Assembly: GCF_002607855.1 (NCBI RefSeq)
Contig: NZ_AWQQ01000105.1
Coordinates: 58,913-66,803 of the forward strand
DNA from: Desulforamulus profundi
GTDB taxonomy: Bacteria; Bacillota_B; Desulfotomaculia; Desulfotomaculales; Desulfotomaculaceae
DNA: 7,891 nucleotides
Reading direction: 5' to 3'
The translations under genes and the position numbers were made by a program. Below the pieces are notes generated by a model. The model searched no databases. It was not told the DNA's origin and worked only from the letters and a program-made list of their open reading frames with translations. This document shows positions 1,286 through 7,489 of the stretch, in pieces (the first letter of the stretch is position 1; each line of letters opens with the position of its first letter).

Positions 1286-2053
1286 ATGAAGGGAAAAGTG
1301 GCAATTGTAACGGACAGTACCTGCGACCTGGACCAAGAGGTGATCCGTGAATACGACATCCGGGTACTGCCCTTAAAAGTAATTTATCCCAATAACGAAG
1401 AATATTTGGACCGGACCGAAACAAGTCCCCGGCAAATTTATGAAAGGATGCCGGAGGAAATTCCTTCCACATCCCTTCCCCGGCACAAATTATGGAGCTG
1501 TTTAAAAAGCTCCAGGCAGATGGTTTTACTCATGTCATTTCTATTCATATTTCCAGCGGGCTGAGCGGGACCTTTAACGCGGTGATGACCATTGCCAGGG
1601 AATTTCCAACCATGGTTATTGAGGTCATTGACTCCAAGGCCTGTCCTTAGGACTGGGAATCCCGGTGTTGGAAGCCGCCAGGACCCTGAAGGAAACCCTT
1701 AGTTTTGAGGCTGCCCTGGCCAGGGCTAAAGATATCATTCGCAACATGGAAATTTATTTTGTGGTGGCTACGCTGGACTACTTAAAAAGGCGGCAGAATC
1801 GGCTATGTGGCCGGCACCCCGGGGGAGATTATGCAAATCAAACCCATTATTTCTATTAACGAAGAGGGAAAATATTATACCTATGATAAGGTGCGGGGCA
1901 GAAAAAATCCATCCAGCGCCTGTTTGAGATTGCCAGCAAAATACTTGGTGAGAAAAAAGCCAATGTGGCTGTAATGCACGGCGGGGCGGCAGAAGAGACG
2001 GAGGTTTGAAGCAGTTACTAAATAGCTATTTAAATCTGCTAAAAAAGCAATAA
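1286..2053 (+). pseudogene. DegV family (FakB-type fatty-acid-binding) pseudogene, multiply frameshifted and C-terminally truncated
   Basis: Reading across frames gives successive DegV family blocks: VAIVTDSTCDL, TSLP..PAQIMELF, ISIHISSGLSGTFN, IDSKAC..LGLGIPVLEAAR, VVATLDYLK.GGRIGYVAG, and MQIKPIISINEEGKYYTYD. Intact relatives bind acyl chains for the FakA fatty acid kinase. The frame changes near 1477-1481, 1644-1647 (leaving TAG 1648), 1785-1790, 1903-1907 (in a run of A) and 2003-2006. Most fit loss of one base; the third fits a gain of one or a loss of two. After the last shift the frame reads LKQLLNSYLNLLKKQ and stops at 2051-2053. The usual C-terminal block ending in a GPVIG-HTGPG-like motif is missing, about 50 residues. 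The start is taken at ATG 1286, immediately before VAIVTDST, rather than upstream at 1235. Confidence 0.88.
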
Positions 2054-2080
2054 AACAGGAGGTGAAAAAACCTGTTTCTT
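2053..2080 (+). terminator. weak terminator-like hairpin after the degV relic
   Basis: AAACAGG (2053-2059) pairs with CCTGTTT (2071-2077) around an 11-nt A-rich loop, followed by CTT. The stem is AT-rich and the U-tract is short, so termination would be weak. The AGGAGGTGA inside it resembles a ribosome binding site but no sensible ORF follows. Confidence 0.35.
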
Positions 2081-2092
2081 GCGGTTTCACAG

Positions 2093-2121
2093 TTGTAATT
2101 AATCATAAAGACTGCTAGAAT
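2093..2121 (+). promoter_or_regulatory. sigma-A-type promoter for the structured leader and selenoprotein gene
   Basis: TTGTAA (2093-2098) and TAGAAT (2116-2121) are separated by exactly 17 bp, with 4/6 and 5/6 matches to the vegetative consensus. Transcription would start near 2128, giving an untranslated leader of about 275 nt before the ATG at 2405. Confidence 0.6.
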
Positions 2122-2127
2122 AATGAT

Positions 2128-2400
2128 GTAAATATTTCCATGTCGCAAAGACACGCTGTGAAAGTCGGGCATGGAATACTATCAATCCAGGTGGAGGTAA
2201 CACCTTCTCCGGGCAGTACGTTTGCTTTAGGCAGCGGCGGGGAACCCTGCGGGGTGATCCACCCGGAACATAAGCGAGAGCTTATGGCCTAGCAGTTGAA
2301 TCCTGTGACACTGCCTCTCGTTAGTCGGCGGGAGAGAAAACTAAATGAATCTGGATTATCCTGTATAAATCAGATATGTTTAGCTTTCAGAAACCAGGTT
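2128..2400 (+). ncRNA. long structured 5' leader; candidate degenerate c-di-AMP (ydaO/yuaA-like) riboswitch, identity uncertain
   Basis: This is a ~270-nt non-coding, GC-rich stretch between a good promoter and a start codon. Visible helices: TTCCATG (2137-2143) with CATGGAA (2170-2176), enclosing GTC-GCAAA-GAC; GGTG/CACC near 2190-2204; GGCAGT (2212-2217) with ACTGCC (2310-2315); TTCTCC (2205-2210) with GGAGAG (2331-2336); and CATAAGC-GAGA-GCTTATG (2269-2286). GGCGGGGAACC, GGGGTGATCC and GAATCCTGTGAC occur in the order of the ydaO/yuaA blocks GCGGGGGAACC, GGGGTGAATC and GAACCCGTCAGC, but with indels and no clear P1. It could be a diverged riboswitch, a decayed one, or an unrelated RNA. SRP, RNase P, T-box, cobalamin and SAM-I signatures were looked for and not found. 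Confidence 0.4.
2341..2384 (+). promoter_or_regulatory. leader hairpin just upstream of the selenoprotein start codon
   Basis: CTAAA (2341-2345) pairs with TTTAG. Inside, after a 3x3 internal loop, ATCTGGATT pairs with AATCAGAT with one bulged G. It ends about 20 nt before the ATG and lacks a proper U-tract, so it looks more like an expression-platform or mRNA-stability element than a terminator. Confidence 0.4.
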
Positions 2401-2404
2401 ATTC

Positions 2405-3178
2405 ATGTTGAAGCGTAAGTTGCTGACAATAGGTCTGGCCCTGGCGGTCTCCGTCAGTCTGGTCGGCTGCAATGCTGCTTCACCCGGCGGGGACCCCGGC
2501 AAACAGTCCGCCGGCACCCTGGAACCTGCCAAGCCCGGTCAACCTGAAACAGGAGAACCTGGTAAACCAAAGGAACCTGCCGGTCCGGTTTCCCCCGATA
2601 CGGAATCAAAGGGTACCCCGGAGGCAGCAAAACCGGACAGCAAAAGTGCCAATGCACCTGTTGAACCCGGCAAGCCGGCAGTGGAGGGAGGCAGTACATC
2701 CACTGCTCCCAAGGAACCCAATGCTCCAAAAACACCGGTCTTGTCCAAGGGTGACATATCGATTCAAGTGGGGGCCAGCCTGCCGGAATTCGTTCTGCCT
2801 GACCTGCAAGGGAAAAAGACCGGCGCATCCTCCATTATTACCCAAAGCAAACTAACTATTATCAATTTTTGGGCCACCACCTGAGGGTACTGCATCAAAG
2901 AGATGCCAGTCCTGGAAGGACTGAATAAAAAGTATGCCAATAAGAATGTTGCAGTGCTTGGAATATTGTTGGACCCCCAGCGGGAAGAATGGGCTCAACA
3001 GGCAGTTAAAGAGACCGGCACCACCTTCCCTCACCTCAAGGATGACGGCAGTTTTGCCCCGCATATTTTTGGCGTTCCCCAGACCATCCTTGTGGATCCT
3101 TCCGGTATAATTCTGGAGCATGTCGTTGGGTTTCATTCCCTGGAACAATTTAGTAAACTGGTGGAAAAACATCTTTAA
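2405..3178 (+). CDS. selenocysteine-containing thioredoxin/TlpA-like lipoprotein (UGYC redox motif)
   Basis: This is a 257-residue protein if TGA 2882-2884 is read as selenocysteine (U160). A lipoprotein signal peptide (MLKRK, then a hydrophobic run to lipobox LVGC, Cys22) is followed by a Pro/Gly/Lys/Glu-rich linker (about 23-115) and a TlpA/ResA-like redoxin domain (about 117-257). The domain starts with GASLPEFVLPDLQGK and has NFWATT-U160-G-Y-C163-IKEMP, where relatives have FWATWCGPCRKEMP, so U replaces the first, nucleophilic Cys. The cis-Pro loop FGVPQTILVDPSG (Pro225) is present. The frame is intact on both sides of the TGA with no other lesion. A SECIS-like hairpin follows. The ATG at 2405 is the first possible start after an in-frame TAG at 2381; its ribosome site (AGG 2396-2398) is weak. 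Expected role: extracytoplasmic thiol-disulfide exchange or peroxide reduction; substrate unknown. Confidence 0.85.
2882..2923 (+). promoter_or_regulatory. UGA selenocysteine codon with candidate bacterial SECIS hairpin
   Basis: After TGA 2882-2884, CAGTCCT (2907-2913) and AGGACTG (2917-2923) form a perfect 7-bp stem with a GGA loop. The loop begins 29 nt after the UGA. The known bacterial SECIS rules ask for an apical loop about 16-37 nt downstream with a G in its first two positions, and both hold. SelB would bind this hairpin. Confidence 0.72.
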
Positions 3179-3190
3179 AAATGTCACTTG

Positions 3191-3225
3191 GTACCCCCCG
3201 CTTAAGGGGGTACTATTTATTTTTA
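3191..3225 (+). terminator. rho-independent terminator of the selenoprotein gene
   Basis: GTACCCCC (3191-3198) pairs perfectly with GGGGGTAC (3206-3213) around a 7-nt loop, followed by a T-rich tail TATTTATTTTTA. It starts 12 bp after the stop codon. Confidence 0.88.
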
Positions 3226-3266
3226 GCCGCAGGAATCTTTGTTCATGAATGCACAGACTTAACATC

Positions 3267-3299
3267 GTACTCCCACAGTTATGTAAACTGTGGGAGTAC
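3267..3299. repeat. perfect 14-bp inverted repeat (hairpin) of unknown role
   Basis: GTACTCCCACAGTT (3267-3280) and AACTGTGGGAGTAC (3286-3299) are exact complements separated by ATGTA. It lies between two convergent genes, but neither side has a T-run, so it is not a typical intrinsic terminator. It may act as a bidirectional transcription or RNA-decay barrier, or be a small dispersed repeat. Confidence 0.8.
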
Positions 3300-3324
3300 A
3301 CAATCCGGCGGCTGCTTATCATTA

Positions 3325-4326
3325 TCAAGTGTTCTGAACTTGCCATACCTGCAAAATTCCGTTTGTGGTTCCCACCACGACTTTTTCCCCATCAATAATG
3401 GCAAGATCCCTCACCGGCCCGCCTGCCCTAAAGGCCCAGTTTGGTTCATCGGTAATACCCGGACTGTAAAAGCCAAAAACATAACTTCCGGGAGTTCCTG
3501 CAACTAACAGGGCGGCCTGCGGCCCGGTAGTCTTAGCCGCTACTGCCGTAACGGTGCTGCCTAAATTTTTCGTAACAAGGCCGGTGACCAGCCGGGCATT
3601 GGCTGTGAATATTCTTACAGAACCATCGCTGCCGGCCGCCGTCAGTTCCTCGCCGGGGTCCGGCAGCAGGTCTGCGGCAGATAAATCCGGGATTTGATAA
3701 GGCAGATTATTGATAGCAGGCCCTTCCTCAAAGCCTGTTTCGGTAATAAATAACGTAATGATCCCTGTCCTTTGATTGATGTTGTAAGCGATGGCCAGGA
3801 ATGGTGGTCTTACGGGGTCTGGACGAAAAGCTGTAATACTCCGGGGTGTCCCCGGCAATTGTCTGATTGCCAGCAGTTCAAGTCTTAATGCCTGCAGGGT
3901 CTGACCCGTTACAAGATAAACATATAAGGTATTATTGCCCCCGGCAATTGCTGCCAGTTCCTGTCTTCCATCCCCGTCAACATCAGCCAGCACCATATCA
4001 TTAAAGTTTGCTCCGGGCTCCGGCTCTGTTTGCGAAAGCTGGGTAATAACCCCTTGCAGGTTTCCATAGACAACGATCCTGTTTGCGGTCCCCACAAAGA
4101 TATTCTCCGAAGTAAAAGCCGGTAAACCAACCGCCAGACTCAGGATAGGCTGATTGACATCGATGGCGCTTGCCAATTGGTACGCTGCATTTTGCGGCGT
4201 AAAAATATATACTCTTGAACCACTGGCAACCACCAAATCTTGTCTTTCACGGGTCAGGATATTTCCAGTCTCCACAAGCAAAGGCCCCTCCAAATTGGTT
4301 TGCCATAAAACCCTTGACCGGGTCAT
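3325..4326 (-). CDS. FG-GAP/VCBS-repeat-like beta-propeller protein
   Basis: This is a 333-residue protein made of repeated beta-rich segments: LVVASGSRVYIFTP, NIFVGTANRIVVYG, NTLYVYLV, AGSDGSVRIFTA, VVVGTTNGILQVWQV. There is one clear calcium-binding-like FG-GAP loop, ADVDGDGRQELAAI (Asp115, Asp117 and Asp119 in DVDGDG). Such propellers usually serve in ligand or protein binding; no catalytic residues are recognisable. No signal peptide or membrane segment is seen, which is unusual for FG-GAP proteins. The start is secure: an in-frame TAA directly precedes the ATG, and GGTGAGG lies just upstream, partly overlapping that stop region. It follows the DUF1847 operon in the same direction but behind that operon's terminator, so it is probably transcribed separately. 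Its own promoter is not evident. Confidence 0.78.
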   Translation of the reverse strand: MTRSRVLWQTNLEGPLLVETGNILTRERQDLVVASGSRVYIFTPQNAAYQLASAIDVNQPILSLAVGLPAFTSENIFVGTANRIVVYGNLQGVITQLSQTEPEPGANFNDMVLADVDGDGRQELAAIAGGNNTLYVYLVTGQTLQALRLELLAIRQLPGTPRSITAFRPDPVRPPFLAIAYNINQRTGIITLFITETGFEEGPAINNLPYQIPDLSAADLLPDPGEELTAAGSDGSVRIFTANARLVTGLVTKNLGSTVTAVAAKTTGPQAALLVAGTPGSYVFGFYSPGITDEPNWAFRAGGPVRDLAIIDGEKVVVGTTNGILQVWQVQNT

Positions 4327-6770: not shown

Positions 6771-7438
6771 TTATACAATCCATTTATTTAGCTTTTCTAC
6801 ATCCAGAATATACATTTCTCGCCCTTCAATGGCGATACTTTTTTCCTGCTTGAAGGTATTTAACAGGGAAGTGACTGTCTGTCTGGATGTTCCAATCATA
6901 CAGGCTATTTCCTCATGCGTTAAACGCAAATCGATCTTCGTTCCTTTTTCAGTTTCTACCCCGGCCCGTTCAGCCATCTTCAACAGTAACATGGCCAGCC
7001 TTCCCGGCACCTGCCAACAAACCATTTCGTGGATAATGGCCTCTGCTTCTCTCATTCTCACGCCTAATGTTTTAGCAACCTTAATGGCGATGGATGGGTG
7101 CTGCTCCAGCAGTTCCTCAAACCTGTTTTTCCTCACAACGACCATGGTAACGTCATTAATGGCTCCGGCAAAACAGGTGCGCTCTCCGTGATAAAGAGTT
7201 TCTGCAAGCCCCATCAGCTCACCGGGGCTTCTCATACTGCCAACGGTTACTCTGCGCCCATCAGCGTGATACGATAAATTTTTACAAAACCTTCTTCAAT
7301 CAGGTATATGCGATCCGCTGTATCCCCAGCGGCGAAAATAATCTGCCCTTTGGGATAATGCACCACAGTTCCATATTCTCTGATAAGATTTTTCTCGTGT
7401 TCTTCCAATGCTAAAGGCTCCACATTTATGTTTTCCAT
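6771..7438 (-). pseudogene. Crp/Fnr-family transcription regulator, interrupted by one frameshift (possibly a sequence error)
   Basis: Two adjoining frames make one ~222-residue Crp/Fnr protein. The N-terminal part (7438-7259) carries the cyclic-nucleotide-like beta-roll: YPKGQIIFAAGDTADRIYLI and EEGFVKIYRIT. After ATGGG at 7261-7257 the frame runs to a premature TAA. Restoring one base gives RRVTVGSMRSPGELMGLAET, the normal continuation, then a dimer helix (RMREAEAIIHEMV) and a winged HTH with recognition helix TSRQTVTSLLNTF. Arg-Gln-x-x-Thr there matches CooA (R177, Q178, S181) rather than Crp (Arg-Glu-x-x-x-Arg), consistent with the TGTCA half-sites downstream. No CooA heme ligands are evident and no Fnr-type N-terminal Cys cluster is present, so the signal sensed is unknown. 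The start is taken at ATG 7438 (GGGGGGA 12 nt upstream); TTG 7489 or ATG 7477 are alternatives. Confidence 0.82.
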
Positions 7439-7489
7439 TTTACCAGCCAATCCCCCCTGAACAAGATGAGGTCCCATGAGTTTATGCAA

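Follow-up and report, generated by a model that had tools for sequence, protein, structure and literature searches.

Organisation of the locus

The window (the whole stretch of DNA analysed, 7,891 nucleotides from Desulforamulus profundi) carries on its forward strand two open reading frames in a common frame, at 2405-2884 (159 amino acids, stop TGA) and 2903-3178 (91 amino acids). When the TGA at 2882-2884 is read through, 2405-3178 becomes one frame of 257 residues which passes through the motif U160-G-Y-C163 and ends at a TAA (3176-3178), and the Pfam matches of the joined protein span the UGA (AhpC-TSA 2.5e-15, Redoxin 2.7e-14, Thioredoxin 9.6e-07). Several related bacteria have kept this UGA together with an RNA hairpin that matches, and 2405-3178 is therefore very probably a single intact gene for a membrane-anchored selenium enzyme that has been cut in two by annotation. 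An earlier note on this DNA had placed the TGA at the catalytic cysteine of a UGYC motif, as residue 160, with the frame and the second cysteine preserved; its residue number and coordinates are correct, and the read-through product indeed retains C163.

The product is laid out as a TlpA/ResA-type lipoprotein with selenocysteine (Sec) at position 160, a reading based on the open reading frames, Pfam, orthologues and codon comparison. A signal peptide (2405-2470, forward strand, as are all features of the gene) ends in the lipobox LVGC, with Cys22 as the presumptive lipidated residue, and by eye on the alignment L-[VAS]-G-C follows a hydrophobic stretch in all six aligned orthologues; a signal peptide and a lipobox Cys, as in a bacterial lipoprotein, thus appear to be present, with lipidation itself predicted. 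A Pro/Gly/Glu-rich linker, predicted to be without structure, takes up about residues 23-115 (2471-2749) and leads to a thioredoxin-fold domain of about residues 119-257 (2759-3175), nearest to ResA-type folds by Pfam, PDB matches and the model. The in-frame UGA (2882-2884) occupies the presumed nucleophile position of UGYC, judged from the translation, the orthologue codons and the roles known in the family. Directly 3' of the TAA lies a terminator-like hairpin with a T-rich tail (3189-3225), identified by its match to the consensus, of which the region 2050-3400 holds five matches against 2.2 expected; beyond it, a near-perfect palindrome (GTACTCCCACAGTT/AACTGTGGGAGTAC) was seen by eye at 3267-3300.

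Elsewhere in the window, positions 1-309 encode the C-terminal part of a TnpB-like protein (PF07282), a DegV-family gene lies in several frames at 1235-2010 (a broken gene or sequencing errors) and a Crp-type regulator at 6771-7489 is apparently in two frames, split near 7240, with a relative of its C-terminal piece in genome G402. Between the broken degV and the selenoprotein gene, the stretch 2100-2345 looks non-coding and had no Rfam match at E <= 1, nor did 2050-2404 match anything when searched against plasmids; from its resemblance, 2100-2345 is perhaps an IS200/IS605-type end.

The two halves in protein databases

A protein database search with the joined protein returned six proteins: the N-terminal half from the window (P0002), its counterparts from Desulforamulus putei (P0003) and a Bacillota MAG (P0004), both of which stop after FWTTT as the window half does, and three distant one-piece Cys proteins. 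The C-terminal half retrieved eight clusters, and an alignment of these used as query retrieved ten, all of 73-93 amino acids with a Met start downstream of the redox motif and coming from D. putei, D. ferrireducens, D. aeronauticus, MAGs or unnamed sources (the UGA upstream of these clusters was read directly only where the locus DNA was examined). The claims of the earlier note that gene calling splits the gene at 2884/2903 and that the selenoprotein is unannotated therefore fit the databases examined, which enter the halves as separate proteins. The split annotation hides the enzyme in three named species, D. putei, D. ferrireducens and D. aeronauticus.

The same entries could be read as favouring a true stop, by which translation of a short lipoprotein would end at the UGA after 159 residues, and the frame beyond it would encode a second protein starting at 2903 or would yield no product. 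UGA does terminate the neighbouring ORF at 3325-4326 and, in relatives, two of the 24 neighbour ORFs, so the codon also serves as a stop in this group. Against termination here, the predicted model would have the N-terminal half end within the thioredoxin fold and leave the C-terminal half without its first strands; an orthologue with Cys in one piece exists, and further evidence at the RNA level is given below, so that we consider a true stop very unlikely.

Orthologues and the codon at the redox site

Orthologues were sampled in 101 genomes of the phylum, then in 398 genomes of the phylum and then in the ten-genome family of G154. The first sample yielded no full-length orthologue and the second yielded two (G154 and G206), while the family held five (52-77% identity), together with two genomes with a distant Cys homologue only and three without a match at E 1e-12. 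A scan of genome contigs with the window protein found three distant Cys relatives only, six exact peptide patterns, one of which spanned the UGA with Cys in its place, did not pick up the orthologues in that scan, and the viral contigs scanned held no relative. Orthology is supported by the DUF1847, TauE and Crp-type regulator neighbours common to the window and G402, where the upstream genes differ.

The earlier note had proposed to look for Cys or U aligned at position 160, and the five closest full-length homologues with DNA carry just these: TGA in four (genomes G404, G406, G402 and G154; loci L029, L053, L054 and L055) and the Cys codon TGC in one (G206, locus L030). Of the four TGA genomes, G404 matches the deposited D. 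putei, G402 D. ferrireducens and G154 D. aeronauticus. Judged from these codons, the gene bears the mark of a selenoprotein, an in-frame UGA where homologues have Cys (TGC in L030 and Cys codons in the other motif-matched homologues).

The broken degV and the split Crp-type regulator indicate that errors or decay occur in this record, and the TGA could accordingly be suspected of being a sequencing error at a TGC/TGT codon, or the gene a pseudogene. Four further genomes, of which three match deposited species, carry TGA at this codon too, which refutes such an origin unless the same decay is common to all, and dN lies well below dS after the UGA between the window and L053; we regard it as extremely improbable.

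A SECIS-like hairpin downstream of the UGA

The 65 bases from 2881 fold with -19.9 kcal/mol (z -3.44), and their apical hairpin (2907-2923), CAGUCCU-GGA-AGGACUG, agrees with the bacterial SECIS (bSECIS) model. According to a figure legend of PMC13188914, this model asks for a stem of 4-16 bp, a loop of 3-9 nt with G in the first two places, a distance of 16-37 nt from the UGA and a minimum free energy of -7.5 kcal/mol or below; the window hairpin has 7 bp, the loop GGA (in agreement with the loop pattern), a distance of 29 nt from UGA to loop and -8.3 kcal/mol for the hairpin alone. Each of the group's five UGA genes has a 7-bp hairpin with a GGA loop 29 nt past the UGA, and each also has a second small stem, GCAUC/GAUGC, between the UGA and the apical hairpin (2892-2906 in the window; folding and alignment). 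In the Cys orthologue L030 no hairpin fitting the SECIS model was found, and 5 of the 7 apical pairs can still form there.

Over all homologues, the bSECIS model was matched by 7/7 UGA genes (window included), which represent two tree lineages rather than seven independent samples, versus 1/37 Cys-codon motif matches (L045), a difference that argues against a true stop. The Cys-codon control covered homologues whose locus DNA had been fetched, leaving out the others of the 398-genome sample; 46 loci entered it, L014, L017, L040, L046 and L049 dropped out for want of a motif match, and one of the 37 matches (FWADCC, L034) may not be a TlpA gene and was excluded from the tree. The exception, the Cys-type TlpA gene L045 of G334 (FWTTWCPEC), has a bSECIS-like hairpin of -16.9 kcal/mol after its Cys codon, which may be chance or the remnant of a former Sec gene. 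Among the loci dropped, L049 (G253), a TlpA-like lipoprotein with a CcdA-like ORF at the same locus, has an in-frame TGA at the expected Trp of FW before CxxC (FUSLNCSYC), for which Sec, an error or a mutation may be considered.

Elsewhere in frame within the eight ORFs analysed, model matches were infrequent (29/1541), as they were among synonymous resamplings of the window gene (14/2000), the UGA orthologues (17-41/2000) and the Cys gene (11/2000); for the more distant L022 they were common (181/2000), and L023 gave 68/2000; resamplings as stable as the observed hairpin numbered 3-11/2000 across the seven UGA genes (3/2000 for L022). Covariation rests on a single compensatory pair, columns 29-39: the window, L053 and the Cys gene have U-A there, the remaining three rows C-G. 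Shuffle controls gave 2/500 for cells paired, 22/500 each for the covariation score and for cells changed on both sides, 253/500 for pairs changed on both sides and 481/500 for further pair types, and when the hairpin was slid, 22-44% of cells paired versus 94% in place.

Selection on the downstream part

Over the first 14 codons past the UGA, the proportion of synonymous differences was 0 to 0.38 when UGA genes were compared with one another (ten pairs), versus 0.76-0.95 in the five pairs with the Cys gene; in the codons beyond, it was 0.18-0.81 in the ten UGA-gene pairs and above that of the first 14 in every pair. Comparisons between UGA genes show this synonymous conservation and those with the Cys gene do not, so the stretch after the UGA is conserved at the level of the RNA in the genes that use UGA, which again speaks against a simple stop. 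Between the window and L053, dN after the UGA was 0.068 and dS 0.394; dS was saturated for several other pairs, and non-synonymous change after the UGA was low, from which it follows that the downstream half is kept as protein.

Selenocysteine machinery in the family

The earlier note had pointed to selA, selB, selC and selD as genes to be checked, and all four are present in each of the five related genomes that bear an orthologue, as selA, selB, selD and tRNA-Sec(UCA); the machinery of the window's own genome we infer from these relatives. Across the ten family genomes, selB was over its cut-off in all ten (in pieces in G401), selA in nine (in pieces in G401; only a 27-bit end in G407) and selD in all ten, every best selD match having an in-frame TGA, compared with 2/14, 1/14 and 2/14 control genomes for selB, selA and selD. 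The tRNA model RF01852 was over its cut-off in all ten but also in 5/14 controls and on other long tRNAs, and ARAGORN was therefore run on the best RF01852 match of each genome, giving tRNA-Sec(tca) in nine of the ten; the match in G407 is a tRNA-Ser.

In each of the group's five UGA genes the reading frame remains open past the UGA, as would also be expected if UGA were reassigned to Trp or Cys or read through independently of the hairpin. Such decoding disagrees with the termination of some neighbour ORFs at UGA, with the Sec machinery of the relatives and the model SECIS, and with the aligned orthologue residue, which is Cys and not Trp; there is hardly any probability left for it in our assessment.

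We therefore put at about 95% the probability that 2405-3178 encodes one selenoprotein, with Sec inserted at UGA codon 160 through SelB and the hairpin, and that the product is an exported redox lipoprotein. The reading of the gene as a selenoprotein in the earlier note is upheld, with added support from the SECIS hairpin, which that note did not contain.

Desulfotomaculum reducens we take to be the same species as Desulforamulus reducens. Eight selenoproteins are given for it in the part of PMC1794560 that we consulted, among them a 'DsbA-like' one which might be a separate protein or the present one named otherwise.

Evolution and distant UGA homologues

A midpoint-rooted tree was built from 43 homologues, 7 with UGA and 36 with Cys. 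Within it, the group's five UGA genes formed one clade (95/81), which indicates few independent events, and the Cys gene of G206 was its sister (99/97 for the six). The other two UGA genes, of G005 and G083, formed a separate clade (99/99), so that the codon labels need two changes. These genes come from other classes of the phylum; both are TlpA-type and have UGA in place of the redox Cys as well as a strong SECIS-like hairpin (L022 of G005, FWASWUPNC; L023 of G083, FWTTWUGAC); no further UGA gene was found in the one and three genomes, respectively, sampled from their classes. Separately, a peroxiredoxin-like ORF (L024, G066) contains a TGA in frame where its peroxidatic residue is likely to be (WTPVUSSEL) and probably encodes a Sec peroxiredoxin.

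On the codons, two gains of Sec from Cys would be the simplest reading, and gain is favoured by the tree, where the Cys gene branches as the sister of the five-gene UGA clade; a loss of Sec in G206 is a possible alternative, since 5/7 apical pairs can still form there. On balance we lean slightly towards gain: in a single family of sulfate reducers (Desulforamulus and its relatives), Cys would have given way to Sec in a TlpA-type enzyme that is carried on a lipid anchor and linker, the sister lineage keeping Cys, and a second TlpA lineage of the phylum would have gained Sec at this residue independently. If this is true, the surface-anchored Sec enzyme would form a branch of the selenoproteome of its own, located outside the cytoplasm and overlooked by annotation. 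The UGA and Cys versions of one orthologue, all in genomes with Sec machinery, offer a natural comparison by which the gain of Sec for an exposed redox enzyme in anaerobes can be tested.

Predicted fold and proposed function

In the model built from a 12-row alignment, residues 10-115 have pLDDT below 50 and the block means of the thioredoxin domain exceed 90 from residue 121. The Sec position lies directly before the helix 161-176 and P225 directly before the strand 226-230, so that the predicted structure shows a thioredoxin fold whose first long helix begins at the redox motif, together with a candidate cis-Pro loop; the cis-Pro loop suggested in the earlier note is borne out as regards the place of P225, its cis geometry being presumed. 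The closest PDB chain by sequence is Bacillus ResA (4nmu, 4.7e-16), followed by similar thiol-disulfide oxidoreductases, and the best fold matches of the model are likewise ResA and its relatives (TM by target 0.82-0.87 for 4nmu and 1st9).

Given the ResA-like predicted fold and the lipobox Cys in 6/6 orthologues, the protein likely carries out thiol-disulfide exchange outside the cytoplasm. By analogy with the family, Sec would act as the nucleophile and Cys163 would be the resolving residue, and by the same analogy the protein is most likely a reductase. We propose that a ribosome reaching the UGA at codon 160 would meet SelB with selenocysteyl-tRNA(UCA), held by the hairpin whose loop is 29 nt downstream, and that Sec would be inserted. 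The product would be exported, lipidated at Cys22 and anchored on the outer face of the cytoplasmic membrane, where the flexible Pro/Gly-rich linker would keep the thioredoxin-fold domain off the membrane. An exported substrate would there be attacked by Sec160 at a disulfide or a comparable oxidised sulfur group, and the selenenyl-sulfide would then be resolved by Cys163, as in ResA/TlpA-type oxidoreductases. Sec insertion, export, lipidation, direction of catalysis, substrate and electron donor are parts of the explanation that we infer.

The obvious candidate for the electron donor, DsbD_TM/CcdA, was found in eight of the ten family genomes scanned, with only a partial match in G404 and none in G406, both of which have UGA genes; it was rejected as a firm partner, and another donor may serve. 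A Pfam scan of ten window ORFs showed no cytochrome c maturation gene.

Comparison with known systems

ResA is an extracytoplasmic thiol-disulfide oxidoreductase with the redox motif CEPC. The window protein resembles Bacillus ResA (4nmu, 1st9) in sequence and fold and differs from it in having UGYC; it would work like ResA without being filed as ResA, as its score against the NCBIfam ResA model (NF002854) is 63.8 bits versus a cut-off of 170, and its matches to the NCBIfam TlpA and DsbE models are also below their cut-offs. The ResA-like family WAxxUGC_long (NF041054) has, by its name, a U in the motif as the window protein does, but with U-G-C adjacent rather than U-G-Y-C, and the protein reaches 40.9 bits against a cut-off of 300. 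The TlpA-like genes of G005 (L022/L026) and G083 (L023/L028) share with the window gene the UGA at the same position and strong hairpins, but by eye they have an N-terminal hydrophobic helix and no lipobox, and they belong to a separate lineage of the tree.

No title or abstract on this gene was found among those listed in the literature searched on selenoproteins in connection with Desulfotomaculum, Desulforamulus, Peptococcaceae, TlpA, lipoproteins or an extracytoplasmic location. As the earlier note had stated, UxxC redoxins are an established class: in the portions of PMC13188914 consulted, UxxC members of PF00578, cd02966 and PF08534 are tabulated as predicted prokaryotic selenoproteins, so the kind of selenoprotein is known. 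The Prx-like thiol:disulfide oxidoreductases (PF00578) and thiol-disulfide isomerase-like proteins (cd02966) described there resemble the window protein in UxxC and in a bacterial SECIS just past the UGA, and its best Pfam match, PF00578, is the family of the tabulated Prx-like selenoproteins, a likeness drawn from their description rather than from member sequences. The lipobox and long linker, in contrast, are features of the window protein that the parts of PMC13188914 consulted do not mention for the PF00578 and cd02966 families, and the words lipoprotein, secreted, periplasm and membrane-anchored are absent from the main text of that review. The suggestion that the enzyme is unusual consequently holds for the lipid anchor and linker, as far as that account goes, and not for the UxxC redoxin itself, and we regard the group described here as a new, well-supported member of the known class of UxxC redoxin selenoproteins.
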